A stretch of 32,796 nucleotides of DNA from Methanobacteriota archaeon. Its GTDB lineage: Archaea > Thermoplasmatota > Thermoplasmata > RBG-16-68-12. Below are positions 2,096 through 31,210 of the stretch, piece after piece. The stretch covers positions 1 to 32,796 of the forward strand of contig VBMB01000139.1 in assembly GCA_005878525.1 (NCBI GenBank). Reading direction: 5' to 3'. Position numbers and translations under genes: made by a program. Within the stretch, counting starts at the first letter, position 1. Each line of letters opens with the position of its first letter. The notes below the pieces were generated by a model, which searched no databases, was not told the origin of the DNA, and saw only the letters and a program-made list of their open reading frames with translations.

Positions 2096-3115
2096 TCACG
2101 CGAGGACCGCATCTTTCATCGAAACACGGTAGGTGCGAATCCAGCGCCCGATCGTCTGGACATCCACGCGGCTCGTCGCTTCCCGTCCCCGTCGCTTCGC
2201 GAGGGCGCGCGGCAGTCCGGCGTACGCATCGAGGCGGCCTCGAGCCATTGCGGCCGCCGTCTTGCCGAATCGGCCTCGGGTCGGCCTTCCCGCGGTCACT
2301 TGCGAGCCGTTCCAGGGCAGGGGGCCCGCCATAACGCGGACCAAATTCCAGGGGATTCCCGTCGTCACGTACCGCCATGGATAGTTCTGGACGAGGTTCC
2401 ACACGCGATTCCGTTCGCAGAGGTACGTCTTCATCGGATTCCCCGATCCGTAGGAGGCCGAGTATTTGTGGTGTACGATCGCCCGCGGGGCGAAGCGCGC
2501 CTCCCAGCCGGCCAGGCGGGTCCTCCAGGCGAGGTCCAAGTCCTCGTAATAGGCGAGGAAGTCCTCGTCGAGCAGGCCGACGGACTCCAAGACGTCCCTC
2601 CGGTACAGCGCGGCTCCCGCAGAGGGCCCGAACACGTCCAACGCCTGATCGAACTGACCCTCATCGACGGAATTCCAACCGCGGTCCATGGCGCTCCCGT
2701 CGGGACCGATGCATACCCCGGTCGAGTTCAAGACGTTCGGGCGGTCGAAGAACACCATCTTCGATGCGACCATGCCGACACGGGGGCCCGCCATCCGGAC
2801 AAGTTCCGCGAGCCACTCCGGATCGACGCGCGTGTCGTTGTTCAGCGTCGCGATGAACCCGCACTCCGGATCTCGGAGCGCTTCGCGCAGCCCGGCGTTC
2901 GTGCCGCGGGCGAAGTGGAGGTTCTCCGGAAGGGGGACGAAGATGACCTCCGGAAACTCGTCCCGAACGACGTCGCGCGAACCGTCCGTGCTCGCGTTGT
3001 CGACGACGACGACCCGATATGAGGGGTACGTTTGGTGCAGGACCGACTGGAGGCACGGCCGGATAGAGTCGCGTCCGTTCCAATTCAGGACGACGACGTG
3101 GCAGCGGCCCGCCAT
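2096..3115 (-). CDS. GT2-family glycosyltransferase
   Basis: This 339-residue GT-A glycosyltransferase resembles the rhamnosyl- and mannosyltransferase group of family 2. The start CHVVVLNWNGRDSI is the classic first strand, VVVVDNASTDGS is the nucleotide-binding second motif, and NNDT at 92-95 stands at the usual DxD metal site. EDFLAYYEDLDLAWR is the C-terminal ED catalytic region. No membrane helix is evident. I chose the ATG at 3115 although the frame stays open upstream, because homologues start just before the LNWNG strand and a TATA-like TTCTAA lies about 30 nt before it. The gene diverges from the methyltransferase gene and probably acts on the same glycan as its neighbours. Confidence 0.92.
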   Translation of the reverse strand: MAGRCHVVVLNWNGRDSIRPCLQSVLHQTYPSYRVVVVDNASTDGSRDVVRDEFPEVIFVPLPENLHFARGTNAGLREALRDPECGFIATLNNDTRVDPEWLAELVRMAGPRVGMVASKMVFFDRPNVLNSTGVCIGPDGSAMDRGWNSVDEGQFDQALDVFGPSAGAALYRRDVLESVGLLDEDFLAYYEDLDLAWRTRLAGWEARFAPRAIVHHKYSASYGSGNPMKTYLCERNRVWNLVQNYPWRYVTTGIPWNLVRVMAGPLPWNGSQVTAGRPTRGRFGKTAAAMARGRLDAYAGLPRALAKRRGREATSRVDVQTIGRWIRTYRVSMKDAVLA

Positions 3116-3269
3116 GCCGCCGCGGTACGCGCCCTGACGATTAGAAGGTGATGTGGATCCGAGAAGGGCCAATCGTCTCCTCATGCACGATATCTTTTTT
3201 GCATCCGGCGGAATCCCCGGAAGAGGGGACGGCCGTAGTAGGATCAACGGGCCTTCGGAGACCAAGGTC

Positions 3270-4316
3270 GTGAATTCGCCGGTCGTGGACAACGGCGGCA
3301 TCCGCGTTGTGGAGGCGGCGGCGTGTCCCCTGTGCGGGGCCTCCGGTCGGGTCCGATACAGCCAGCTTCGAGATCGGTCCTGGAGCGCGCCGGGCACCTG
3401 GTCGTTTCGCGAGTGTGTCGCATGCGGCCACCTGTGGTTGGATCCGTGCCCCGTCGCCGAGGAGATCGGGCGGCTGTACGCGTCGTATTACACGCACGGC
3501 GTGGAGCGCGGGTCACCCCTCCAGGGAGACGGGTTCTGGCCTCGGTGCCGGAGGGGCGTGCTCGAAGCGTACGGCTACCGGGGACTCGCGCACGATTCGA
3601 CGGAGCGGTTCCTCGGCCAGGCGTTGCGGTTCGTCCCGCCGGTATGGGAGGAGTGCGAAGAGATCGTCCATTCCGTGACGGGTCCGCCTCGCGGTCGCCT
3701 CCTCGATATCGGATGCGGGGACGGTTACTTCCTGAGAATCATGCGAGACTTGGGCTGGACGGTGCAAGGTCTCGAGCCCGATCCGAAAGCCGCGGCCTTC
3801 GCCCGCGCGCGCGGCCTCGACATCATCCAGAGCCCGATCGAGGCCGCGTCTCTGGCCCCCAACGCGTTCGATGTCATCACGACGAGCCACGTCATCGAGC
3901 ACGTCCTCGAGCCGGTCACGTTCCTCTCCGTCGCCCGTCGCGCGCTGAAACCGAATGGGATCCTGTACGTCTTCACGCCGAATGCGGGGAGCTGGGGGCA
4001 TGCGATGTTCGGCCCGTCATGGTACCCGCTCGAACCGCCCCGCCATCTCCATATTTTCCGTCCAAGGAATCTCGTCGCGTGCGCGGAGCGCGCTCGCCTT
4101 CAGGTCGTAGACGTTCGTACGACCGGTCGGCTCCATCTTTTCTTCGACGCAAGCGTGTCGATCCACAAGACCGGCCGGTATCGCTTCGATGATCCGATGA
4201 TCCAAGCGTCTGTCTTCGACCGACTGTTTCGGGTGACCGAAAACCTCCTGGTCCGCGTGCATCCCTACGCCGGCGAGGAAATCGTGATGCGGTGCACGAA
4301 GCCGGCGACGGACTAG
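3270..4316 (+). CDS. Zinc-ribbon class I SAM-dependent methyltransferase
   Basis: This 348-residue methyltransferase has an N-terminal zinc-binding region, with CPLCG at about residues 19-23 and a second CVACG some 30 residues later. A Rossmann SAM domain follows, with motif I LLDIGCGDGYFL near residues 145-156 and the post-I acidic LEPDP. The HVIEHV and LKPNG motifs are typical of the Methyltransf_23 group found in glycan clusters, so it may methylate a sugar. The frame is open back to a GTG at 3153 and an ATG at 3183, but that stretch uses AGA, AGG and TTT codons that are rare here and contains an AT-rich TATA-like run at 3187-3200. I therefore prefer the GTG at 3270, which has a GGAG upstream. 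The start is the least certain part. The gene converges on the next one with only 10 nt between stops. Confidence 0.87.
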   Translation: MNSPVVDNGGIRVVEAAACPLCGASGRVRYSQLRDRSWSAPGTWSFRECVACGHLWLDPCPVAEEIGRLYASYYTHGVERGSPLQGDGFWPRCRRGVLEAYGYRGLAHDSTERFLGQALRFVPPVWEECEEIVHSVTGPPRGRLLDIGCGDGYFLRIMRDLGWTVQGLEPDPKAAAFARARGLDIIQSPIEAASLAPNAFDVITTSHVIEHVLEPVTFLSVARRALKPNGILYVFTPNAGSWGHAMFGPSWYPLEPPRHLHIFRPRNLVACAERARLQVVDVRTTGRLHLFFDASVSIHKTGRYRFDDPMIQASVFDRLFRVTENLLVRVHPYAGEEIVMRCTKPATD

Positions 4317-4326
4317 CCGAAGCGGA

Positions 4327-5421
4327 TCAGCGGGCGCGCGCCTTTCCAGCCACGGGTTCGAGCAACTCGCGCATGCGGTCGACGAATACGCGGACATCGA
4401 ACTGGCGCGCCCTCGCCTCGCAGGCTCCCCGCATTGCCGCGAGGGCGTCCGGTGTCGCTTCCGCCACGCAGGCCGCCAGGCGTTCGGGGGTTGCGGGCCG
4501 CAACCATCCTGTCTTTCGATGGACCACGCTCTCCCGGTATCCGCCTTCATCGACCGCGACGACCGCCTTCCCGGACGCCATCGCCTCCACAGGTCCGAGC
4601 CCAAAGTCTTCGTCTTGGGACGTCGCGATGAGTCCGCGGCACGTGGCGTACAGGTCGCGCAGCTTCGAGTCATCGACTTCTCCGAGGAATTCCACGTTCC
4701 GCGGCGGGTCGAGGGATCGGACGAACCGTTCCATGCGCACGCCCATCTGTGGACCCCCCGCGACCACCAACCGCTCGCGGGGGAGCCGACGGAACACCTC
4801 CAGCTGGAGGTCGATGCGCTTCTCATGAGAGAGCCGGTTCACGGACAACCAGAAGTCGCCGACGCGGTCGAATCGGTAGCGTGCCGTGTCGACGGGCGGA
4901 TAGACGACCTCGGACGTTCGCCCGAGGAACCGTCGGATTCGGCCCGACACATTTCGGCTGTTGGCGACGATTGTGTCGACCCCCTCGACGGCGGCTTCGT
5001 ACTCCGGCCGTCGCCGTTCGATCCATCGGCGGGCGGCCGCGCGCCGGACGGGCGAGAGCGACTTGAGAACGGGGTCGCGCAAGTCGTAAAACACTCGGAC
5101 AGGCGTGTGGCAATACCACAGGTTCGGCCGGAGTCGAGGTGCCGCAAAGACGGCCCAATTCCCCGAAAGGACGTAGACGTCATGGTCGGGGATCGAGGCG
5201 TCGCGGAAGGCGCGCGCTTGCGCGTTCTGTCGCATCGGTGCCTTCTGGGACACGCGCGCGATTTCGGTCGCCCGGACGGCGGGCATGCCGGCTCGCGGGG
5301 GGAGGCTTGGATCGAGATCCGTTACGTAGAGATCCGCGTCGAAGGCCGACGCCAGGGTCAGCACCACCCGCTCGCCCCCGCCGATGAAGCTCATGTGGTC
5401 GTGGAGGACCGCGATCCGCAT
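4327..5421 (-). CDS. GT4-family glycosyltransferase (paralogue 2)
   Basis: This 364-residue GT-B glycosyltransferase is paralogous to the one at 911-1978. It starts MRIAVLHDHMSFIGGGER and has the EX7E motif in DEDFGLGPVEAMASG, with Glu271 and Glu279 at the same residue numbers as the paralogue. The sequences diverge most in the N-terminal acceptor half, which fits a duplication followed by a change of acceptor. The frame is open far upstream, but the ATG at 5421 starts exactly at the first beta strand and has TTTATG 31 nt upstream, so the longer reading is unlikely. It lies 41 nt downstream of the GT-C-like gene on the same strand. Confidence 0.93.
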   Translation of the reverse strand: MRIAVLHDHMSFIGGGERVVLTLASAFDADLYVTDLDPSLPPRAGMPAVRATEIARVSQKAPMRQNAQARAFRDASIPDHDVYVLSGNWAVFAAPRLRPNLWYCHTPVRVFYDLRDPVLKSLSPVRRAAARRWIERRRPEYEAAVEGVDTIVANSRNVSGRIRRFLGRTSEVVYPPVDTARYRFDRVGDFWLSVNRLSHEKRIDLQLEVFRRLPRERLVVAGGPQMGVRMERFVRSLDPPRNVEFLGEVDDSKLRDLYATCRGLIATSQDEDFGLGPVEAMASGKAVVAVDEGGYRESVVHRKTGWLRPATPERLAACVAEATPDALAAMRGACEARARQFDVRVFVDRMRELLEPVAGKARAR

Positions 5422-5446
5422 GGACCGGCGGGATGCGATCGCCGGC

Positions 5447-5452
5447 CATAAA
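5447..5452 (-). promoter_or_regulatory. TATA-like box of GT4 paralogue 2
   Basis: Minus-strand TTTATG begins 31 nt before the ATG at 5421. It sits inside the 41-nt gap after the GT-C-like gene and argues for a separate leaderless transcript. Confidence 0.5.
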
Positions 5453-5462
5453 TGCGTGCGGC

Positions 5463-7157
5463 TCAACACGTCGGCGCGCTGCCCCACCCGATCCAATAGA
5501 GCCGCGCGTACCCGTTGTCGAAGACCTTGATGAACGGCGCCTCGTCGAACTTTGCGATCACGGCGGGATCCATCGGGGCGGCCGTTTCCCAGGGCGTGAG
5601 CCGTACGCCCGCTTCCATGTCTCGGTCGATCCAAACATACGTCCCGTTTTTCACCCCGGATGGCGAAACGATGTCCGAGAGGCCTGCACACGGGACGTTC
5701 GCGAATTCCGGCAAGAATGGATCCCGTGTCCGGTCCCACGTCGCATTGACGCCACCGAATCCGAAGACCGTCGTGGACCCCTGGTGGTCCGACACGACAA
5801 GTCCGCTCGCATGGTCCCTCGCCCAATACGCAGGGTCCAACGCCGCGGGGATCGTCCCTTCCCTCCAGCCCGCGAGCGTGGAGGGGGGCGGGATGCCGGC
5901 GACCGCGTTAGCGGCGAGGAGGACGCCGCAGAGGCCGAGGGCGAAGGTCCGCTTCCCACCGCGAAGGCCCGCGAGGTCCAAGAGTCGGAAGAACCCCATC
6001 CCCGCGAAGATTGCGAGAGGGATCATCAGGTATTCCGCGTGTCGGTACGGAATCAGGACGCGCGGGGCCACGGCGATTCCCACAACGGCGGAAGCGAGGA
6101 GGGCGACGAACCAGCCGTTCACCGCAAGCCCGTCCGCGAGGAAATCGACGAAACGGCGGCCCGACGCCGCGAACGACAACAGGAGGACGAGCGGGACGAA
6201 GTAGAGTAGCCCGGTCGCGGGGACCCGAAACGTCGTTCCCGGGACCCCGATGACGACCGAGACCACGCCGATCACGAAGATGGTTCCCACGGCCGCCAGG
6301 TACGCGGTCGCGGGGCGGCGGAGCGCCGGATAGGTCGTCCGATACCTCCAGGCAACGCGGCTGCGTGCGAAGATGATCCCTCCGAGGAGAATGAGGCCCG
6401 CAGGAAACAAGGCGAGCAAGGCCCACCAAGGCTGGATGTTCACGTCCGGCAGGATCGATTCTCGAAACGTCGTCGCGTACCCGAGCCAGTACACAAACGT
6501 GCCGCCGAGGAGGGCGCTCGCGAACATCACCTCGCGTTTCGCACCCGCGGTCCATCGCCACGGACGGGCGAGGCCCTCGAGGACGATCGCCCCGAAGACC
6601 ATGATGAGGAAGAAGTATAGGGACAGGTGATGCGTCGCGATGAGCGTCGCGGTCACGAGGAGAAGCGGCACCATTGCCCGACCGTCCGTTCGAAGCCGCA
6701 CGAAGCATAGGAGCCCCGCGAGGGCGAGGAGCTCCCCGACGGTTGCAGGCGCCGTGTGCGCCGCCGTGTATGCCACCGGAATGGCACCGGCCGGGAACGA
6801 GGCCGCGAACAGGGCGAAACGGTCGTCGCCGGTCATCCGGTGAGCGACCAGGAACATCGGCAGGACTGCCAGGGCACCGAGGATGGGGACGAGCAGGTTG
6901 ATCGTCGTCGGCACGTCGAGGCCGCCGAGGTCAACGAATCCCCCCTGGGCGAAGAACATGCCCGGGAAATACGGATAGGTGACGCCCCATCCGTAGTACG
7001 TCGTCGAGAGATGACCGTTTCGGACGAGCGCTCGCAAGATCGAAAAGTACTCGCCCGTGTCGGAGCCCCAGTAGAGGAACGACCAAAGGGGCGAGAGCCG
7101 AACCGCGATCGAGACGAGCACGACCGCGGCCAGGGCGACGGCGCTCGACTTCCTCAT
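5463..7157 (-). CDS. Polytopic membrane protein, GT-C-like glycosyltransferase
   Basis: This 564-residue integral membrane protein has roughly a dozen hydrophobic helices and a soluble C-terminal domain of about 120 residues. Just after the first helix lies WGSDTGEYF, with Asp33 and Glu36, matching the acidic motif in the first extracytoplasmic loop of GT-C enzymes that use polyprenyl-phosphate sugars. I see no WWDYG motif, so it is not the AglB/Stt3 oligosaccharyltransferase itself. A related role, such as transfer of a lipid-linked sugar to a surface glycan or protein, is inferred from fold and neighbourhood. The ATG at 7157 is preceded by a TATA-like TTTAGT 29 nt upstream. It diverges from the gene at 7263. 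Confidence 0.82.
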   Translation of the reverse strand: MRKSSAVALAAVVLVSIAVRLSPLWSFLYWGSDTGEYFSILRALVRNGHLSTTYYGWGVTYPYFPGMFFAQGGFVDLGGLDVPTTINLLVPILGALAVLPMFLVAHRMTGDDRFALFAASFPAGAIPVAYTAAHTAPATVGELLALAGLLCFVRLRTDGRAMVPLLLVTATLIATHHLSLYFFLIMVFGAIVLEGLARPWRWTAGAKREVMFASALLGGTFVYWLGYATTFRESILPDVNIQPWWALLALFPAGLILLGGIIFARSRVAWRYRTTYPALRRPATAYLAAVGTIFVIGVVSVVIGVPGTTFRVPATGLLYFVPLVLLLSFAASGRRFVDFLADGLAVNGWFVALLASAVVGIAVAPRVLIPYRHAEYLMIPLAIFAGMGFFRLLDLAGLRGGKRTFALGLCGVLLAANAVAGIPPPSTLAGWREGTIPAALDPAYWARDHASGLVVSDHQGSTTVFGFGGVNATWDRTRDPFLPEFANVPCAGLSDIVSPSGVKNGTYVWIDRDMEAGVRLTPWETAAPMDPAVIAKFDEAPFIKVFDNGYARLYWIGWGSAPTC

Positions 7158-11433: not shown

Positions 11434-12300
11434 GTGCGAAAGATTCGTAGCGGAATCTACGGACTCAACCCGCTGTTGGACGGCGGTGTCAACGAGAACA
11501 GCACGACCGTCGTGATCGGCCGATCCGGTGCGGGCAAGACGACCCTCGCCACACAGTTCATCCGCCGCGGCTTGCAGGACGGCCAGGAAGGCGTCTTCGT
11601 CTCGCTCGACGAGAACAAAGAACAGATTATCCGCGAGGCGGTCGAGATGGGATGGTCCGACATCCTCGACTATCTCGACAACGAGCTCCTCGTCTTCATC
11701 GATGCGTCCGGCCGAGAGTTTTCGAACTTCATCCGGAAAGAATTGCCGGCGTTCGTGGCGGACTGGAAGGGGAGCAACGCTCGGATCGTCGTCGACCCGC
11801 TCACACCGGTCCTCTGGTCCACGAAGGATCTGTACGAGCAACGGGACTTGATCGGCTACATGTTCAAACAGACCCGGAAGGTCGGGACGGTTCTCTGTAC
11901 GCTCGAGGAACATGGCCCCGGGGATCTCGCGGGTCCGGAGACCGTGATCCCGATGTACCTGGCGGACTGCGTCGTCCACTTGAAGTTCAACAGCGACCAC
12001 GCGAGCCCGTCGCGGCTCCTGAACATCGTCAAATGCAGAAACAGCCGCCACAGTCCGTCGGCGCACGCCTTCCAGATTGTCCGCGGCCTCGGGATTGTGA
12101 TCGAAGGGGTCGACGGCCGAAAGGCGGTCTCGGCGAAGGCTCCGTCCCAGCTTCGTCAGCTCCTGCTCACGCACTCGATGCCGAAGAACGTGCGGGACGC
12201 ACTCGAGAAATCCCTCGACGGGCTCACGGACGAGGACTTCCGCAACCTGAAGCCGGAGCAAGTCCTCGAGCTGATCATCCAGGAGTACCAGGGGGCGTGA
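11434..12300 (+). CDS. KaiC/RAD55-like RecA-superfamily ATPase
   Basis: This 288-residue protein is a single-domain ATPase of the KaiC/GvpD/RAD55 group, which in archaea usually acts in signalling or motility control rather than in a clock. It opens RSGIYGLNPLLDGGV, the typical KaiC-fold entry. Walker A is GRSGAGKTT at about 29-37 and the Walker B strand is RIVVDPLTPVLW near 118-129. A helical C-terminal tail of about 50 residues (SMPKNVRDALEKSL onward) follows the core. The start is GTG, supported by a TATA-like box at -30. The winged-helix gene begins 1 nt after the stop, so the two are cotranscribed. It has one ATPase domain, not two as in cyanobacterial KaiC. Its partner is not known. Confidence 0.88.
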   Translation: MRKIRSGIYGLNPLLDGGVNENSTTVVIGRSGAGKTTLATQFIRRGLQDGQEGVFVSLDENKEQIIREAVEMGWSDILDYLDNELLVFIDASGREFSNFIRKELPAFVADWKGSNARIVVDPLTPVLWSTKDLYEQRDLIGYMFKQTRKVGTVLCTLEEHGPGDLAGPETVIPMYLADCVVHLKFNSDHASPSRLLNIVKCRNSRHSPSAHAFQIVRGLGIVIEGVDGRKAVSAKAPSQLRQLLLTHSMPKNVRDALEKSLDGLTDEDFRNLKPEQVLELIIQEYQGA

Positions 12301-12301
12301 G

Positions 12302-12997
12302 GTGGCCCGCGGGCTGGGGCGTGCCCTGCAACGGGCCGTGTCCCGCGAAGGCGCCGAGATCGACTTGGAAGGAGAGGGCCGTAGCCTGGCGAACGCGCGA
12401 CGGCGTCAGGTCTTCCGGTACCTGTGCCTTCGACCGTGCGCGCGGATTGGCGAGATCAGTCGAGAGCTGAAGATGTCCCAGGCGACGGTGCGTTGGCACA
12501 CGTGGGACCTGACGGAGAACCGGTACCTCCAGTCGGAGGGCGTGAGCCTCTTTCCTGCAGGGCTCATCGATTCCGCGGACGTGTCGATGTTCGCGGCGCT
12601 CGCGTCGACGGGTCGCGCAGCGGTCCTGGCAAGCGTCTTCGACGTTCCCGGCATCTCGTTTCAGGAGATCGCATCGCGGGTGGGACTCACCCGCCAGTCG
12701 GTGAGCAAGGTTGCTTCGGAACTCGCTGAATTCGGTCTCGCACGGCTCGTCGACGACGGCCGCTTCCGTCGCGTGTATTCGACGGACCTGCTTTCACGCA
12801 AGCGAGAAGCAAATCGTGGTCGTACCCGCGCATTCGAGGAGGCCGTCCTCCGCCGCCTCATGGAAGAGGGCCTCGCTCCCGAGCTCGTACGACGGGAAGA
12901 AACAAGGTTGCTCGTCCGGTTCGGTACGGGCGCGACGCGAGTCCTCTTGGAGATTCCCGTAGACCCGTACGCGACGGCGTGGAAGACGACGGCCTAG
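12302..12997 (+). CDS. Tandem winged-helix DNA-binding regulator
   Basis: This 231-residue protein has two winged-helix modules. The first spans roughly residues 35-85, with recognition helix around MSQATVRWHTWDL. The second spans roughly 105-160, with ISFQEIASRVGLTRQSVSKVASEL, a MarR/ArsR-like helix-turn-helix, followed by a wing near LVDDGRFRRVYS. The C-terminal ~60 residues (ANRGRTRAFEEAVLRRLM onward) are predicted alpha/beta and may mediate dimerisation or effector binding. It starts at a GTG 1 nt after the KaiC-like stop, so translation is probably coupled. Co-encoding with a KaiC-like ATPase suggests that the ATPase modulates, or is regulated with, this factor. Targets are unknown; the promoter of the adjacent large surface protein is a reasonable candidate. 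Confidence 0.83.
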   Translation: MARGLGRALQRAVSREGAEIDLEGEGRSLANARRRQVFRYLCLRPCARIGEISRELKMSQATVRWHTWDLTENRYLQSEGVSLFPAGLIDSADVSMFAALASTGRAAVLASVFDVPGISFQEIASRVGLTRQSVSKVASELAEFGLARLVDDGRFRRVYSTDLLSRKREANRGRTRAFEEAVLRRLMEEGLAPELVRREETRLLVRFGTGATRVLLEIPVDPYATAWKTTA

Positions 12998-13080: not shown

Positions 13081-16000
13081 ATGGACGAAAGCTATCTCGA
13101 GTGGCTGATCGGACTTCCGGGATTCGGCGAGGAGAAGGCCCGCCGCGTCGCCGAGCGATTCCTCTCGTTCGAGCAGCTACGCGCCGCGACCCGCGAGCAA
13201 CTGGCCGCGGTCCCGGGCGTGACATCCGCGGACCTCGAGACGCTCCTCGGGCTTCTTTCGGACGGGTCCGGACAGGACGCGTCGGGCGAGCTCTTCCTCT
13301 GCCCCGAATGCGGGTCGTTCGTCGGGACCGCCGCGAATTCGTGTCCATTCTGCGGCGTGGAATTCGATGCCTCCGCCGACTCGGGATTGTCGGAAGAGAT
13401 CGAAGACTTCGTCGCCGAGGAAGACGCCCCCGCTCGGATTTGTCTCACATGTGGTGCGGGGATGGGCGTCGACGCGATGAAGTGCGGCGTCTGCGGTCGT
13501 CAATACACCCGCGAAGAATTCGCGCTGCTCCCCGGATTCCAGCCGAGCCTCGACGAGAGCTCGCCCTTCTGTGCGCGGTGCGGCGGATATCTCTTCTCCG
13601 ATGAAACGGAATGCGCGATCTGCGGGACGACGGTGACCTCGGCCAAGCCGGCCGCTCCGACCGCGAACGCGAAAGGCGTTGTGAAAGACTTCCTGACGCG
13701 CTGGCAGCGGGTGGCCCAGGCCGTCCCGGCCCTCTCGGAGACGGACCGGCTCCAGGAAGAGCTCGAGCACTACGACCGTCTCATCGAGGCCGACGCCACG
13801 TTGGAGCGGGCCTGGGTGAACCGGGCGAGGATCCTCGAGAAGCTGGGCCGTTCCGCGGAAGCCGCGGACTCTCTCTCGAAGGCCGCGGACCTGAACCCGG
13901 CGAAAGACGACGAGTATCGGCTAGAGGTCCAGAACATCCTTCGTTCCACCGCCGATGCGTCGGCTCTCCCCGCTCGCTGGCGGCAGCCGGCCGCAACCGC
14001 GGCGCCGAAGGCCGTCGACACGCGTCTCGTCGAGGCGCTCGGCCACTACGACTCCCTGCTCCGCGCGGACCCTTCCTTGATTGTGGCCTGGCGGACGAAA
14101 GGTGAGATCCTCGACCGACTCGGCCGTCCCGACGAGGCCCGAACTTGTTTCGAACGGGCGGACCGGCTCGAGCGGGCCGAGGGCCGCTCCCTCCAAGCCG
14201 CCGTCTCGGGCCTGCGGTCCAGCGGCCTCGCGACCTCCGGTCCCGCCGGCAGCGGCCACGTGAATGGGCGCGTGAATGGGACCCGCTCGGGTCGAACGAA
14301 CGGCCGCACGAATGGCCGGACAAACGGCCGAGTCAACGGCCTTGCGGAAGGCCGTGTGAACGGCCTGACGACCGGAGCCGTCAACGGCCTCACGTTCGGC
14401 AAGGGCGCGACTAACGGTCTCGTCAACGGAAACGGATTCACGAACGGCCGCCGGGGTCGTTATGGGCCCCCGCGGATTCCGGCGCAGCCGCACTGGTCTC
14501 GCTCGGTCGTCGGGATTGCCGCCGTCGTAGCCCTCATGGTCATCGTCCCGATCCTCGCGAGCATGCTTTCGCCGTCGCCCGGAGGCCCGTCCTCCATCAT
14601 CCGGATCGACGGGGACTTCAGCGACTGGGCGCCGTTCCCGGCGTACGCCGACTCGTCGACGGACCAAGTCCAGAACCCGGGCATAAACCTGCTCGACGTG
14701 AAAGTGGCGACGCAGAATCAGAACTTGTTCGTGAACGCGCGGGTGCAAGGCCTCCTGTTCCAGGGGTCCGGTTCGAACGAGACGGACAGCGTCTTCGTGT
14801 TCCTGGACGAGGATAACAACCGGAACACCGGCTATCCGATCGGCGACCTCGGTGCGGACGCGATGGTCGAAATCTACGGATGGCGAGACTATCAAGGCCT
14901 TCAGCACGGCGTCGACAGCTTCCGCTTCAACGAAACCGGGACGCCCCGGTCCAACGATTGGCGGCGGTTCGTGTCGGGCGGTTCCGCCGACGCCGCGGTG
15001 AGCGGCCAGCAACTCGAACTCCGCACGACCGTCGCCGATCCCGCGAAGACGCGAATCCTCGTGTACGCCGCAGACAACCTCGGAGACCGCGACTCGGCGG
15101 ATGGCTCCGTGGTGCCGAGCCGGCCGACGGTCGTGTTGGGTCAGCAGACCGTGGCGCCCGACGTGGTCGCTGGCCCGAGCGTCACGTTCCTTCGGGTCAC
15201 GATGAGTCCGATGGGCGGGGTGCCCCACCTGGCCGCGCTGAACGTGACTCGGCTTGGCACCTCGACCGATGCGGTCGACCTCTCCCTCTTCCGGGACGAT
15301 GGCAGCGGTGCACTCGATGCAGCGGATCCGTTCCTTTCGAACGTCTCGATGACCGGCGCAGCCGCGAGCCTCCCGATGAACGAGGTCGTCGCGGCGCCCG
15401 AAGTCCTCTGGATTCAAGCCCGGTGGGCCAATCTCACGCCGACTTCCACGTTCGGGCTGTCCGTCGCCGGGATCGTCTCGAACGGGACCGCGAGCTTCCG
15501 GCCGCCGGAGACGGGGCGCGTCTACCTCGGGGCGGCGCCGACGAACCTCCGGGTCGATGGCGCCTTCGGGGACTGGCGGGGCCGCCCGTACGGCCAGGAC
15601 GTCCTCGGAGACGTGACGAACCGGACCGGCGCACCCGAGTACGATGCGAACGTCGACCTCGTCGCGACGGCGGTCGACCTCGGGACGAACTTCACGGGAT
15701 ACGTCCGCGTGGACGGCCGCCTGCTCGGAGGGCAAGACATTCCGACGACGCGCAGCCGGACGTACCCGGTTGCCGTGGATACGGACCTCGACACTGTTCC
15801 GGACTCCGTCGAAAACCTCCTCGGTCCGAACCTGACTCGCGACTTCAACAACGACAACATCACGGACGACCGGACCAACGGCGATGTCGACGGCGACGGG
15901 ATCCCGGACTATCCGGCGGGACCGGACTGCTGGCTCAACACGACGATCCCCTCCTGGTATCCGCCCCCGTACGCGGGCCGGAGCGTGACCCGATACATTT

Positions 16001-17628
16001 GCCCGATTGGGTTGCCGCCCGAGGCAGGAGTGGACGTGGTGTACGCCTACATCGACGCGGACAACTCGAGCGCGACCGGCCTGTGGTCCGATGTCCAAGG
16101 TCGAATCTACGGATTCGATTATGCGATTGCGGTGATTGGCCGGAACGGAGCCGTGAACTCGAGCGGCCTGTACGCGTTCGTGCCGGCCCGCGCGAACCCG
16201 TGGAACTTCGTCCGACCGATCGATGTCGGCCTGGACGCTCACCGGATGGAATTCTCCGTGAATTCAAGCGCGCTCGCCTTGGCCGCCGGATACCAAGTCG
16301 TCTACTTCGCCTCGGACTGGCGCCTCGGGTACGATGTCGCCTTGCCCGACGCCGCCGTCGCTCGATTCCCGATCGCCGCTCAGGCCGCAACGAACGCCGT
16401 GATCAACGAGGTCTCGCCCCAGCCGAACCCGGAATGGGTGGAGCTGGCGAACCCCACCGCGACTCCGATTTCCTTGAACGGCTGGAACCTCGCGCTGAAC
16501 AAGGGGGGCAAAGTCACGGTCATCTTCACATTCACAACGCAGAACCTCGGTGCCTGGGGATCTGGGCTCGAGTACCTTTCGGTCGTCCTACCGAAGAACT
16601 CGCTTCCGAACGGGAACGTACAGCTCCAGCTGCTCCAAGGGACCACGGTCGTCGACCAGACGACGTACTCTCCGAATGTTGGCAGCAGCCAGACGTGGGC
16701 GCGATTCAAAGATCCGATCACCGGACGGCCGATGGACACGAACAACGACGCGGCCGACTTCTACGTCTCGCTGGCCCCATCTCCGGCTCGCGGAAATGAT
16801 CGCCACCGACCGACCATCTCAATCATCAAAACGCAGAACCGGGTCATCGCGGCGCCGGGCGAATTGATCACCTACACATTGTATTACAACAACACCGACA
16901 CCGGGATGGCGAAGACCGCCTGGATCAACGACACGCTGCCCTCCGGCGTCGTCTTCTCGTCCTCCAGCGTTCCGTACAGCTACATCATCGGGCCGATGTA
17001 CGGCTGGGCCTTCACGAACGTCATGCCAGGGGCGCATTCCTTCACGGTCACGGTCCAAGTCAGCGCGACGACGACGGACGGACAAGTGCTCCGGAACACG
17101 GTCACCCTGGATTACACCGATCAACTCTCCCGACCTCTGACTCGGACGCGCGGATGGGCGAACGCCACCGTGTCGCGACCCACCATCACGGTCGTGAAGA
17201 CGGCGAGCCCATCGAACGCGAAGGCGGGGGATCTCGTGACGTTCACGATCTACTACAATAACACGGGCTCCGTCGCGGCGGGCACGGTCACGATCAAGGA
17301 CAGCTTGCCGAACGGCTTCGACTACGTCGGAGCGACTCCGGTGCCGACGTGGATGAGCGGTCGGACGTTCTATTGGAACTTCACGACCGTCACACCGGGC
17401 GCGCACAGCCTGACGATGCGCGCTCGGGTGAACTCGACGTTTAGCGGGACACGGCTCGTGAACTGGGCGTTCCTGAACTACACGACAATCGGCGGCTACC
17501 CGCCCATCGGCAGCACGTCCTCCGTCACCGTCGCGATTCCCGAGCTGTCCGACATGATTTTCGTCGCCGTCGTTCCGGTGATCATCCTCGGATTGAAGCT
17601 CCGCGCGAAGCGCCGCGAAAAGGAATAG
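13081..17628 (+). CDS. 1515-residue mosaic membrane protein: HhH, zinc ribbons, TPRs, NG repeats, TM, extracellular adhesion modules
   Basis: I know no named family with this architecture. Residues 1-60 look like helix-hairpin-helix (GLPGFGEEKARRVAERF, then VPGVTSADLETLLGLL). Three zinc ribbons follow near 75-97, 120-145 and 160-185 (CPECG/CPFCG, CLTCG/CGVCG, CARCG/CAICG). TPR-like helices lie at about 217-285 and 310-370. An Asn-Gly-rich repeat linker covers about 393-460, and a membrane helix about 470-497. Outside, two related beta modules begin RIDGDFSDW and RVDGAFGDW. A calcium-type Asp repeat (DVDGDGIPDYP) lies near 935, a lamin-tail-like domain (NAVINEVSPQPNPEWVEL) at about 1104-1240, and two DUF11-like repeats (ISIIKTQN, ITVVKTAS) at about 1242-1480. 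The end is IPELSDM, a hydrophobic stretch and a basic tail. Many Asn-X-Ser/Thr sites occur outside. It could link a cytoplasmic sensor to a surface adhesin; that is inference. Confidence 0.9.
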   Translation: MDESYLEWLIGLPGFGEEKARRVAERFLSFEQLRAATREQLAAVPGVTSADLETLLGLLSDGSGQDASGELFLCPECGSFVGTAANSCPFCGVEFDASADSGLSEEIEDFVAEEDAPARICLTCGAGMGVDAMKCGVCGRQYTREEFALLPGFQPSLDESSPFCARCGGYLFSDETECAICGTTVTSAKPAAPTANAKGVVKDFLTRWQRVAQAVPALSETDRLQEELEHYDRLIEADATLERAWVNRARILEKLGRSAEAADSLSKAADLNPAKDDEYRLEVQNILRSTADASALPARWRQPAATAAPKAVDTRLVEALGHYDSLLRADPSLIVAWRTKGEILDRLGRPDEARTCFERADRLERAEGRSLQAAVSGLRSSGLATSGPAGSGHVNGRVNGTRSGRTNGRTNGRTNGRVNGLAEGRVNGLTTGAVNGLTFGKGATNGLVNGNGFTNGRRGRYGPPRIPAQPHWSRSVVGIAAVVALMVIVPILASMLSPSPGGPSSIIRIDGDFSDWAPFPAYADSSTDQVQNPGINLLDVKVATQNQNLFVNARVQGLLFQGSGSNETDSVFVFLDEDNNRNTGYPIGDLGADAMVEIYGWRDYQGLQHGVDSFRFNETGTPRSNDWRRFVSGGSADAAVSGQQLELRTTVADPAKTRILVYAADNLGDRDSADGSVVPSRPTVVLGQQTVAPDVVAGPSVTFLRVTMSPMGGVPHLAALNVTRLGTSTDAVDLSLFRDDGSGALDAADPFLSNVSMTGAAASLPMNEVVAAPEVLWIQARWANLTPTSTFGLSVAGIVSNGTASFRPPETGRVYLGAAPTNLRVDGAFGDWRGRPYGQDVLGDVTNRTGAPEYDANVDLVATAVDLGTNFTGYVRVDGRLLGGQDIPTTRSRTYPVAVDTDLDTVPDSVENLLGPNLTRDFNNDNITDDRTNGDVDGDGIPDYPAGPDCWLNTTIPSWYPPPYAGRSVTRYICPIGLPPEAGVDVVYAYIDADNSSATGLWSDVQGRIYGFDYAIAVIGRNGAVNSSGLYAFVPARANPWNFVRPIDVGLDAHRMEFSVNSSALALAAGYQVVYFASDWRLGYDVALPDAAVARFPIAAQAATNAVINEVSPQPNPEWVELANPTATPISLNGWNLALNKGGKVTVIFTFTTQNLGAWGSGLEYLSVVLPKNSLPNGNVQLQLLQGTTVVDQTTYSPNVGSSQTWARFKDPITGRPMDTNNDAADFYVSLAPSPARGNDRHRPTISIIKTQNRVIAAPGELITYTLYYNNTDTGMAKTAWINDTLPSGVVFSSSSVPYSYIIGPMYGWAFTNVMPGAHSFTVTVQVSATTTDGQVLRNTVTLDYTDQLSRPLTRTRGWANATVSRPTITVVKTASPSNAKAGDLVTFTIYYNNTGSVAAGTVTIKDSLPNGFDYVGATPVPTWMSGRTFYWNFTTVTPGAHSLTMRARVNSTFSGTRLVNWAFLNYTTIGGYPPIGSTSSVTVAIPELSDMIFVAVVPVIILGLKLRAKRREKE
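14251..14457 (+). repeat. Degenerate tandem repeat encoding an Asn-Gly linker
   Basis: Within the 1515-residue gene, about a dozen copies of a roughly 12-15-nt unit encode G-R/L-T/V-N-G. The core triplet pairs AACGGC and AATGGG recur. It joins the TPR region to the membrane helix. The repeat stays in frame and shows codon variation, which suggests selection on the peptide rather than fresh slippage. Confidence 0.85.
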
Positions 17629-17914: not shown

Positions 17915-18829
17915 CTAGCGCCCAGCGCCCAGGACCGCGACGAGCAGGTTTCCCGCCAAGAAGGCAAGCAGGAAGCCCCCGAGGAGGGGGACCATGAACG
18001 GGACCCACGGGGTGACCCACGCTCGCTGGATTCCCGCTTCACGCAGCTTGAGGATCTCCGGTCTGGGGTCCAAATCGCGCTTCGGACGCAGGACGACCAC
18101 GTGTTCGCCTCGGTCCGTGATCCGCTCCATCAGCCTCACGTGTTTCGGAAACGGATCCAGCGCTGCACGATAGCCGAGAAACGACTGGATCCCGACGTCG
18201 CCGCGGGTGAGATTGTAGATGAACAGACCCAGGGGGACGACCAATTGGAGGACAGCGGCATCCACAAGGACGACGAACGAAAACGGAAACAACGCCTGGA
18301 ACGCGGGTTGGACTCTCGGGTCCGCGGCGAACACCGGGAACGGTGACGCGTGAGGATACGTCGGAACAAGCAACGTGAGCGCCATGAGGCACTTCGCATC
18401 CGCCCCGCCGGCGAGGAGCCGGGCTCGGAGCATCAGCTGGTAGACGACGAGCATCACGGGCATCGACGCCAGCTCAACGATGGGAACGGAACTGGCAACG
18501 ATTCCCGCGAACCCGAGCGGGGCGATCCACATCGCGGCGGCCGCAAAGAACAATCCCATCCGACCGGGTCGGGCGTGGAAACCGTCTTCATCGAAGAGCG
18601 GCCGGCCGAAGAAGACCGCGTAGAACAGCACCGCGGCGGAACCGGCGAGCGACCACGTCGGCCACGGCGCCGATTCGACCAGGAGTTCCGCGGCGAGGAT
18701 GACCAGTCCGAGCGTTCCCAAGCCGATCCACAGCGGGTTGCGGACGCCTCGCGTCCTCAGATCGGAGGCCGCCGCGACGACCAGAAAGGCGGTGCCGGCC
18801 GCGAGTCGCGTCGCCGCGAACGCGTCCAC
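17915..18829 (-). CDS. Archaeal prepilin/preflagellin peptidase (A24 family)
   Basis: This 304-residue polytopic aspartic protease would remove class III signal peptides from archaellins or type IV pilins at the cytoplasmic face of the membrane. The first catalytic aspartate is Asp23 in AAASDLRTRGVRNPLW, the usual SDLRxRxVPN context. The second is Asp144 in LLAGGADAKCLMAL, matching the archaeal GxHyD form of the motif. About six to eight hydrophobic helices are visible, plus an insert of about 100 residues (including DRGEHVVVLRPKRDLDPR) before the last helix. The frame opens at a TTG at 18871, but I prefer the GTG at 18829: a TATA-like AAATAA lies about 27 nt before it, and the extra 14 residues are not family-like. 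No pilin or archaellin genes are nearby. Confidence 0.88.
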   Translation of the reverse strand: MDAFAATRLAAGTAFLVVAAASDLRTRGVRNPLWIGLGTLGLVILAAELLVESAPWPTWSLAGSAAVLFYAVFFGRPLFDEDGFHARPGRMGLFFAAAAMWIAPLGFAGIVASSVPIVELASMPVMLVVYQLMLRARLLAGGADAKCLMALTLLVPTYPHASPFPVFAADPRVQPAFQALFPFSFVVLVDAAVLQLVVPLGLFIYNLTRGDVGIQSFLGYRAALDPFPKHVRLMERITDRGEHVVVLRPKRDLDPRPEILKLREAGIQRAWVTPWVPFMVPLLGGFLLAFLAGNLLVAVLGAGR

Positions 18830-18849
18830 GCCGCGGCATCCCTGCGTCG

Positions 18850-18855
18850 TTATTT
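18850..18855 (-). promoter_or_regulatory. TATA-like box of the prepilin peptidase gene
   Basis: Minus-strand AAATAA lies about 27 nt before the preferred GTG start at 18829 and inside the longer open frame. Confidence 0.45.
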
Positions 18856-18978
18856 CAAGGGTTGCGTGCAACGCGACATGGGTCGCAAGACTGCGTTTTT
18901 CTCGGTAACGACTAAATAGACCCTAACGAATAGCCGCAAATTGCCGGAGGATTTTGTCGAATCTCTCCGAGGACCGTC

Positions 18979-23070: not shown

Positions 23071-26000
23071 ATGCGCGAACTCATCGATGCGTTCTTCCGA
23101 GAACGCTCCATCGTCAACCATCACATTGCCTCGTTCAACGACTTCCTTCCCACGATCGACAATCCGAACTCGCGGATGCAGCGGATCGTGGACAACCTTC
23201 GGTCGTCGCCCGAAGACGAACGCCGCGGCATCATCAAGCTCGACGAGGACCGGACCGAAGGCGACGTAATCGAAATCCGGATCGGCCGGAAGCGGGACGA
23301 TCGCGGGCGGATTGACCTCGAGGCGAAACCGACGATCACGCTGGGCCTGCCCATCGTCAAGGAGGCCAACGGCGCCACCCACCCGCTCAATCCGATGGAA
23401 GCGCGGCTGCGGAACCTGAACTACACCGCGCCGATCTACCTCGACTTCACGGTCATCGAGAACGGCATCGAACGGGAGCCGGAGCGGGTGCACATCGGCA
23501 ACTTCCCGATCATGGTCAAGTCGAAGCGGTGCCTCCTGTACAAGGAGAACATGGAGACGGAAGGGGAGCTCACCTCCGACGAGTACAAGCACAAGCTCAT
23601 CGAGATGGGCGAGGACCCGTACGACCCGGGCGGGTACTTCATCATCGGCGGGACGGAGCGGGCCCTGATCTCGCTCGAAGACCTCGCCCCGAACCGCGTC
23701 CTCGTCGAATTCAACGAACGTTACGGCCGGAAGGTCGAGGTCGCCAAGGTATTCTCGCAGAAAGAAGGGTACCGCGCCCTCACCTTGATGGAGAAGAAGA
23801 AGGACGGGCAGCTGATCGTCAGCGTCCCGACGGCCTCCGGGCAGATCCCGCTGATCATCCTCATGAAGGCCTTGGGCATGGAGAAGGACGAGGACATCTA
23901 CAACGCCGTCGTCTCGACGCCCGAGATGGCCAATATCGTCTACGCGAACATCGAGGAGTGCCAGAACAAGAAGATCTACCCTCCGAACGGGATCTTCACG
24001 CGAGACGACGCGATTAGTTACCTCGAGAAGAAGTTCGCGACGGGCCAGGCGAAAGAATACCGGATCAAGAAGGTCGAGTCGATCCTGGACCGGTCGCTCC
24101 TCCCGCACCTCGGCGACACCCGCGAGGACCGGATCAAGAAGGCGATCTTCCTCGGACGCGTCGCCCGGACGGTCCTCGAGTTGTCCCTTGGCATGCGCCG
24201 GGAGGACGACAAAGACCACTACGCGAACAAGCGGCTCAAGCTCGCGGGCGACCTCATGGAGGATCTGTTCCGGGTCGCCTTCGCGAACCTCGTGAAGGAC
24301 CTGAAATATCAGCTGGAGCGATCGTACGCCCGGCGCCGCGAGCTGAAAATCTCCTCGGCGATTCGGCCGGACCTGCTCACGCAACGCCTGCTCCATGCGC
24401 TCGCGACGGGCAACTGGGTCGGCGGCCGGGCCGGCGTCAGTCAGCTCCTCGACCGCACGTCCAACATGAGCGCCCTGAGCCACTTGCGGCGCGTGACGTC
24501 TCCGTTGACGCGGTCCCAGCCCCACTTCGAAGCGCGCGATCTCCATCCGACCCAGTGGGGCCGCCTGTGTCCGAACGAGACGCCGGAAGGCCAGAATTGC
24601 GGTTTGGTCAAGAACTGCGCCCTCGTGATCGACGTGTCCGAAGGGTTCCCGGAGGAAGAGGTCAAGCTCCTCCTCGCCGACCTCGGGACCAAGCAGGTCA
24701 AAGGTCAGCAGACCCAGCTCACCCGCGTCTACGTGAACGGAGACCTCGTCGGGCTCCACGAGGACCCGAGGAACCTCGTGGCCGAGATCCGCGAGCGTCG
24801 CCGCTCCGGGCTCCTGAGCCACGAGGTCAACGTCCGGTACGACGAGAACATGGGTGAGATCATCATCAACTGCGACGAGGGCCGCATCCGACGTCCGCTG
24901 CTCGTCGTCAAGGACGGCCACATCGTCTTCTCTCGTAAGCACGTCGACGAGCTGAAGATGGGCCGCCTCCGGTTCTCCGACCTCGTCCGGAACGGGATCG
25001 TCGAGTGGATCGACGCGGAAGAGGAGGAAGACACGTTCATCGCGATCTACCCGTACGACGTCCCGAGCCGCTGCAAGGAGTGCAAGCATCCGCTGAGCCG
25101 GAACGACGTCACGTGGGCGAACATGGGGAGCCGCGACGAGGAAGTGGAACTCCAGTGCGCGCACTGTCACAAGACGTTCAAGGTGAAAGCCTCGATCACG
25201 AAAGAGCACTCCCACATCGAGGTCGACCCGATGGTCATCCTGGGTGTCGCCTCGGGCGTGGTACCATATCCCGAGCACAATTCGTCTCCACGGGTCACGA
25301 TGGGGGCGGGGATGGCGAAGCAGTCCCTGGGCCTGGGGTCGAGCAACTACCGCCTCCGGCCGGATACGCGAAGCCACCTGCTCCACTACCCAGAGCAACC
25401 GCTGGTGCAGACGGACTCGATGAAGTACGTCTCGTTCAACGAGCGACCCGCGGGCCAGAATTTCGTCGTCGCGGTGATGTCCCACCACGGGTACAACATG
25501 GAAGACGCGATCGTCATGAACAAAGCCTCGATCGACCGAGGTCTCGGCCGGTCGTCGTTCATGCGGACGTACCGCGCGGAGGAGCGCCGCTACCCCGGCG
25601 GGCAGGAAGACCACTTCGAGATCCCGTCCCCGGACGTGCGCGGTGCGCGTGCCGACCTGTCGTACGCCAACCTGACGCCGGATGATGGGCTCATCTCGCC
25701 GGAGGTCCTCGTGACGGGCGGGGACGTCCTCATCGGGAAGACGAGCCCGCCGCGGTTCCTCGAGGAGGAAACGGACTTCCTGACGCCGCAGAAGCGCCGC
25801 GAGACACCTGCGGGTCCCGGAGCTCGGCGACAAGTTCGCGTCCCGTCACGGCCAGAAGGGCGTCATCGGCCTGATTGCACCGCAAGAGGACATGCCCTTC
25901 ACCGCGCAAGGCATCATCCCGGACCTGATCATCAACCCCCATGCGATTCCGTCGCGGATGACCGTGGCCCACGTCCTCGAGCAGATCGGCGGGAAGGTCG

Positions 26001-26562
26001 GTTGCCTCGAAGGACGGTTCATCGACGGCACACCCTTCTCCGGCGAAAGGGAGGACGCCATGCGGAAGGCCCTCGAGGAGAACGGCTTCCGGTCGAACGG
26101 AAAGGAGATCCTGTACGACGGCCGCACGGGCCGCATGATCCCGGCGGAGATCTTCGTCGGGGTGATCTATTACCAGAAGCTGCACCACATGGTCTCGGGC
26201 AAGTTGCACGTCCGCTCCCGCGGGCCGGTTCAGATTCTCACGCGGCAGCCCACCGAAGGGCGGTCCCGCCAAGGCGGTCTGCGGTTCGGCGAGATGGAGC
26301 GGGATTGCCTGATCGGCCACGGCGCCGCGATGGTGATCAAGGACCGCCTCCTCGACGAGTCCGACGGGACGATCCAGTACGTGTGCGGCAACCCGGATTG
26401 CGGGCACTTCGCGATCAAAGATCGGAAAGGGAACCTTCGCTGCCCCGTCTGCGAGAACACCTCGAAGATCTATCCCGTGCAGACCTCGTACGCGTTCAAG
26501 CTCCTGCTCGACGAACTCTTGTCCTTAGGGGTCGTCATGCGTCTACAGCTGGAGGACATGCG

Positions 26563-26566
<4 letters not shown>
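23071..26566 (+). CDS. rpoB: RNA polymerase subunit B, interrupted by a deletion and frameshift
   Basis: This is the second-largest RNA polymerase subunit, encoded as one unsplit B. The first frame runs from the ATG at 23071 to about 25805, with [16 protein letters not shown], the zinc pair CKECKH/CAHCHK and the [19 protein letters not shown] catalytic region. The reading then moves to another frame: [20 protein letters not shown] onward, through [20 protein letters not shown] and a CGNPDC/CPVC zinc site, to the TGA at 26564-26566. Between RRET and RVPELGDKF the family has about 32 further residues (a TVRHGE...VKVRVRD segment) that are absent here. The result is a net loss of about 100 nt that is not a multiple of three. 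The subunit is essential, so an assembly or read error is more likely than a real lesion. Restored length would be near 1195. Confidence 0.93.

Positions 26567-31210
<4,644 letters not shown>

Follow-up and report, generated by a model that had tools for sequence, protein, structure and literature searches.

Single-chain regulators of the ToxR/CadC type place a sensor outside the cell, cross the membrane once and carry their effector modules inside. Among archaeal proteins, KaiC-like ATPases have been proposed to act as signal hubs, a proposal that takes in fusions of inactivated KaiC (iKaiC/DUF835), as given in the passage of PMC5847659 that cites Makarova et al. 2017. Across 11 Thermoplasmata genomes, the same paper counts only 3 histidine kinases. 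Thermoplasmata are almost without two-component systems (PMC5847659), and their way of sensing the outside is therefore a standing question. Two other described systems, the surface proteins with DUF11 (B_ant_repeat) domains and the archaellum, with its ATPase ArlH and its prepilin peptidase, share individual elements with the locus described here.

The window, by which we mean the whole stretch of 32,796 nucleotides analysed, encodes on its forward strand three consecutive genes that we treat as a cassette. The first (11434-12300, +) specifies a KaiC-like ATPase (Pfam KaiC, PF06745; E=3e-36, 125 bits against a cut-off of 26.6) with an intact Walker A motif, GRSGAGKTT. The second (12302-12997, +), which starts 1 bp after kaiC, encodes a two-domain winged-helix regulator (wHTH) recognised by matches to HTH_24 and MarR_2 and by alignment of its family. 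The wHTH gene ends 83 bp before the third gene (13081-17628, +), which encodes, from an ATG start, a receptor-like protein of 1515 aa, here termed the NG-TM protein.

The presence of a KaiC-family ATPase beside a DNA-binding regulator recalls the proposed KaiC hubs, as does the fusion of inactivated KaiC-like domains into signalling proteins. Measured against the account of those hubs in the passage cited above, the cassette differs in its third partner, a long transmembrane protein whose single chain includes an NG-repeat linker. We class the cassette as a variant of KaiC-based signalling, not as a categorically new system. The NG-TM protein resembles the ToxR/CadC type in being a single chain with a presumed sensor outside and effector modules inside; in the cassette, however, the wHTH is a separate gene, the KaiC ATPase is interposed, and the NG-TM protein has a second, C-terminal anchor. 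Like the DUF11 surface proteins, the NG-TM protein has two C-terminal DUF11 repeats and a C-terminal transmembrane (TM) anchor. That family implies no cytoplasmic half, whereas the NG-TM protein adds a cytoplasmic head of 460 residues, a second TM helix and two modules marked by an IDGxFxDW motif. Neither the cassette nor the NG linker nor the receptor family was described in the literature searched, which is weak evidence, the 2017 paper on KaiC hubs lying outside that search.

The frame, 1515 aa from its ATG, lies where the initial annotation placed it, and the gene is genuine. Eighteen full-length orthologs can be aligned from end to end, with identities of 37-88%; in this alignment, the cysteines of the first zinc ribbon, the N and G of the linker and residues of every ectodomain domain are invariant. 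Nearly every genome of the same order contains an ortholog, typically as a single full-length copy, and orthologs also occur beyond the order. For this reason, a chance ORF, an assembly chimaera and the joining of two genes by assembly error, the last of which had been raised at the outset, are all excluded by full-length orthologs in many independent genomes. The proposed order of modules is borne out as well, since Pfam HHH, DZR, TPR (in two blocks), LTD and two DUF11 domains follow one another in that sequence. The architecture, initially described as unrecognised, is indeed unusual, but it is not a one-off; transmembrane proteins with an NG linker form a large family, of which it is one branch. 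Named ortholog records derive from soil or sediment Thermoplasmatota MAGs (e.g., Euryarchaeota archaeon EA_*, RBG_16_67_27 and RBG_19FT_COMBO_69_17), and the soil and grassland source of the ortholog MAGs matches the RBG-16-68-12 / ‘Ca. Yaplasmales’ group (PMC9239135), to which they presumably belong. In loci L075 (genome G013) and L082 (genome G012), a frameshift or a sequencing error has split the ortholog in two, the ORFs measuring 1270+469 aa and 1052+620 aa, respectively.

Within the home order, almost every locus whose contig is long enough preserves the gene order DP2 (the large subunit of DNA polymerase D, upstream of the cassette), thioredoxin-like, KaiC, wHTH, NG-TM, with a convergent A24 prepilin peptidase gene downstream. 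The triplet KaiC-wHTH-NG-TM, on the same strand and in the same order, recurs in the majority of the families sampled from the class and also in other classes of the phylum; nearly all cassette KaiCs keep GAGKT, and the NG-TM heads in the class-wide triplets combine HhH with as many as about 15 zinc ribbons. Because the triplet loci outside the order had been found mostly through the NG or IDG motif, the test was repeated starting from KaiC alone. Among the 38 loci so obtained, the wHTH was adjacent in 33, and the cassette included an NG-TM gene in 16; several of the loci lacking an NG-TM gene stop at a contig edge, MAG contigs being short. By our own estimate, which is not a computed test, chance would supply NG-TM neighbours in well under one of 38 loci, given ~2-10 NG-TM genes per ~2000-gene genome. 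Two control KaiC homologs (L199 and L200) have neither a wHTH nor an NG-TM neighbour. It should be noted that the KaiC-wHTH pair also occurs without an adjacent NG-TM gene, namely in the Aciduliprofundum-like genome G049 (which has an NG-TM gene elsewhere), in family f27 and in several second-cassette loci; thus, the receptor is not an obligatory partner of the pair. Family f9 keeps KaiC with neither a wHTH nor an NG-TM gene adjacent.

The link to the KaiC-like ATPase and to the two-domain regulator, suspected in the initial annotation, is strongly supported by this phylum-wide conservation. The conserved association of three genes, which include a KaiC-type ATPase and a DNA-binding regulator, makes the NG-TM protein the probable receptor of an archaeal signalling system about which little is known. 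In one locus (L095:2153-9194, genome G035), the cassette KaiC is apparently split, with residues 1-224 in one ORF and residues 215-287 closing a 1473-aa ORF that lies just ahead of the wHTH, which suggests an insertion or rearrangement within the gene.

The archaellum provides a different model for such a locus. ArlH is itself a KaiC-like ATPase, and within the order the next gene downstream of the cassette, convergent with it, encodes an archaeal prepilin peptidase-like A24 protein (17915-18871, -; Pfam Arc_PepC_II and Peptidase_A24), so that in this order a KaiC-like ATPase and an A24 peptidase are neighbours as well. On this model, the cassette would be a surface-filament or secretion apparatus in which KaiC corresponds to ArlH, the A24 protein to ArlK/PibD and the NG-TM protein to an assembly platform or adhesin. 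We consider this very improbable: the A24 gene lies on the opposite strand and adjoins the cassette within the order only, standing outside it beyond the order; the cassette has no visible ArlI/ArlJ-like partner, the constant partner of KaiC being the wHTH instead; and in those window genes that the Pfam scans covered, neither a secretion ATPase nor a platform was seen. Elsewhere in the window (23071-29355), one ORF of 2094 aa is a fusion of RNA polymerase B (Rpb2 domains) and A′ (Rpb1 domains), with A″ next at 29352.

The feature common to the family is the NG-repeat juxtamembrane linker (14260-14451, +; residues ~394-457), whose repeat unit is N-G-[LRI]-[TV]. It is basic and highly constrained, and it is predicted to be disordered (pLDDT ~28, AlphaFold2). 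The 99 distinct linkers collected consist of 27% Gly, 19% Asn, 12% Leu, 11% Thr and 9% Arg, and together they contain 853 Arg and Lys residues vs 83 Asp and Glu residues. In 97 of these 99, a TM helix follows the linker within 70 residues; one of the other two has a TM helix further downstream, and one is N-masked in the data. When proteins were instead retrieved by the IDG module, mostly from other classes of the phylum, most of those with a TM helix before the module had the NG linker, while several lacked it. In the NG-TM protein of the window, the TM helix (14485-14556, +; residues ~469-492) is indicated by hydropathy and by a model helix at 470-496, and the asymmetry of glycosylation sequons described below supports an N-terminus inside the cell.

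The linker is not a DNA-level repeat artefact, because its Gly and Asn codons vary; its dN/dS of 0.01-0.02 in three close ortholog pairs (within a genus) likewise rules out such an origin. The folded domains in these pairs have dN/dS values of 0.04-0.46, and only the TM helix and the stretch preceding it are constrained as strongly as the linker. In two other ortholog pairs, linker dN/dS is 0.09-0.19, and the linker is not a clear outlier there. The NG repeat thus ranks with the most constrained segments of the protein in spite of its predicted disorder. Several NG-TM proteins (L055, L059, L061, L154 and L156) are nearly headless, with the linker close to the N-terminus, which implies that the linker may act without a head domain.

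Comparison of paralogs shows what varies around this constant element. The heads of NG-TM paralogs are exchangeable (HhH, TPR only, KaiC-like or none), while the linker and TM helix remain constant. Two paralogous cassettes occur, with NG-TM heads of the HhH/zinc/TPR type in one and of the TPR type in the other, the second having its own KaiC and wHTH. In other NG-TM proteins, an N-terminal KaiC-like domain (Pfam KaiC, E 1e-23 to 1e-28) precedes TPRs or zinc ribbons, which are followed by the linker; genes for such KaiC-fused proteins often lie directly behind a further KaiC gene. The one fused KaiC-like domain that was scored has the P-loop GPTGLEKE, and other fused P-loops, read by eye, look degenerate (GPSGVEKD, GPSSEERN and GPVGDEKD). 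The occurrence of KaiC both in cis and in trans before the same linker supports a functional partnership. A second NG-TM protein of the home genome (L050; G000:C18, 1-3904), 1301 aa long, has zinc ribbons before the linker and a same-genus counterpart, L051.

The cytoplasmic half begins with a helix-hairpin-helix domain (13087-13260, +; residues ~3-60), which scores above the Pfam HHH cut-off, matches HHH_5, carries the canonical PGxG hairpin and is modelled as helices with pLDDT ~85. Three zinc ribbons follow (13294-13626, +; residues ~72-93, 119-140 and 162-182; Pfam DZR above the cut-off). All three are present, as initially annotated, but the first alone, with C74, C77, C88 and C91, is invariant, the others being missing in some families; in class-wide orthologs, the number of ribbons ranges from about 1 to 15. 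Two TPR blocks (13729-14214, +; residues ~217-290 and 314-378; Pfam TPR_2, pLDDT >90) complete the head. AlphaFold2 models the HhH and TPR helices confidently; the pTM of the N-terminal half is 0.24, and the model is uninformative on how the parts are coupled. Most matches in PDB sequence searches were to TPRs, designed or natural; the remainder were a few weak hits of other kinds and a single DUF11-like chain (9ifr). Pfam scans of the NG-TM protein and of the scanned window genes detected no histidine kinase or receiver domain.

An HhH domain with a PGxG hairpin, zinc ribbons and a basic linker (853 vs 83 charged residues, as above) could also mean that the head binds DNA or RNA directly, in which case the protein would be a ToxR-like membrane regulator or a nucleoid tether, and KaiC and the wHTH would be regulators acting in parallel. 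Judging from domain content, however, the TPRs and zinc ribbons are as indicative of protein binding as of nucleic-acid binding, and HhH domains serve protein contacts too. The swapping of heads among paralogs around a constant linker and TM helix argues in the same direction, and we regard this nucleic-acid reading as improbable.

The ectodomain is modelled as a chain of all-beta domains (mean pLDDT 82.6). Its paired beta modules are two copies of one domain, each starting with [IV]DGxFxDW. The first (14596-15135, +) is defined by an alignment of 30 paralogs and by a beta model; an intervening beta-sandwich domain (15148-15540, +; all-beta model, pLDDT ~90) is conserved in orthologs; and the second IDGxFxDW domain (15544-16350, +), defined by ortholog alignment and a beta model, accommodates an Asp-rich insert at ~15802-16005. 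The Asp-rich calcium-type repeat of the initial annotation is thus present, but it is an insertion in the second beta module, not a module of its own, and it is absent from several orthologs of the same genus, including L036/L037. The 30 paralogous IDGxFxDW modules reach the cut-off of no Pfam family and have no sequence match in the PDB. Membership in CBM9 (PF06452, CBM9_1) was considered and rejected, as a single member of the 30 gave a match (E=0.025, 14.9 bits vs a cut-off of 23.4). A Foldseek search with the whole ectodomain was uninformative, returning generic multi-domain all-beta matches (integrins and complement proteins) with a query TM-score <=0.16. Further downstream are a lamin-tail domain (16378-16776, +; LTD, PF00932, 36.3 bits vs a cut-off of 34.3), present in 23 of 24 orthologs, and two DUF11 repeats (16810-17526, +; Pfam DUF11, 64 bits vs 24.6; NCBIfam B_ant_repeat, 71.4 bits vs 24).

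In the ectodomain, after the TM helix, N-x-S/T sequons are enriched, averaging 19.9 against an expectation of 9.7; in the cytoplasmic half, before the helix, they are depleted (0.94 observed, 1.74 expected). This contrast supports an orientation with the N-terminus inside. Together with the Pfam domains and the structure models, this asymmetry upholds the proposed division into a scaffold half inside and a surface half outside. Possible surface glycosylation genes lie near the DP2 gene (window 2096-5826, -): one, at 2096-3397, belongs to glycosyltransferase family 2, and the other, an ORF at 4327-5826, resembles a GT4-type glycosyltransferase by eye.

The protein ends in a PE[LF] motif, a TM helix and a basic tail (17536-17625, +), conserved in orthologs and present in nearly all NG-TM paralogs with an intact 3′ end. 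This anchor or sorting signal has the features of archaeosortase-type C-terminal signals (a PEF-like motif, TM helix and basic tail). The exosortase family PF09721 was detected in 11 of 12 genomes tested; it was not found in the home genome, which is 81% complete.

Given its DUF11, LTD and Ig-like folds, a role of the outer half as an adhesin is plausible. Taken further, this leads to the main rival of the receptor model, namely that the NG-TM protein serves chiefly as an envelope anchor or structural adhesin. Its head and linker would fasten the surface layer to the nucleoid or to a scaffold within the cell, and the part played by KaiC and the wHTH would be confined to controlling its synthesis or assembly. 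A second, C-terminal anchor and an ectodomain rich in sequons fit such a function, as does the finding that related Thermoplasmatales have an unordered glycoprotein coat in place of an S-layer (PMC12448462). The full-length ortholog, however, is usually single per genome, and the KaiC-like domains fused into paralogs suggest a direct role of KaiC, not the control of expression alone. In our opinion, the structural reading is unlikely, although the pilus-type machine and the nucleic-acid tether are weaker still.

We consider the chances about even that the cassette carries out KaiC-based transmembrane signalling, with the NG-TM protein as its membrane receptor, which signals via KaiC to the wHTH. 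From the observed architecture, the reality of the gene, its topology signature, the constraint on the linker and the conservation of the cassette, we infer as follows what the protein binds, which parts make contact and which way the signal runs. The glycosylated ectodomain, with its two IDGxFxDW modules, optional calcium repeat, LTD and DUF11 repeats, would bind a surface, a polymer or a neighbouring cell. Binding would alter clustering or tension across the first TM helix, and the basic NG linker, with the TPR/zinc-ribbon/HhH head, would in turn recruit or release the cassette KaiC-like ATPase. The nucleotide state of KaiC would then control the wHTH regulator and, through it, transcription. 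More tentatively, the family may represent a distinct type of archaeal transmembrane signalling in a lineage almost devoid of two-component systems: its single-chain receptors, whose heads and ectodomains can be exchanged, would have in common a basic, disordered and strongly constrained NG element that would dock or cluster a dedicated KaiC controlling a co-encoded wHTH.

A phylum-deep cassette of surface receptor, KaiC ATPase and transcription regulator would offer a concrete and testable answer to the question of how Thermoplasmata sense the outside. It would also supply a membrane input to the proposed archaeal KaiC ‘hub’.
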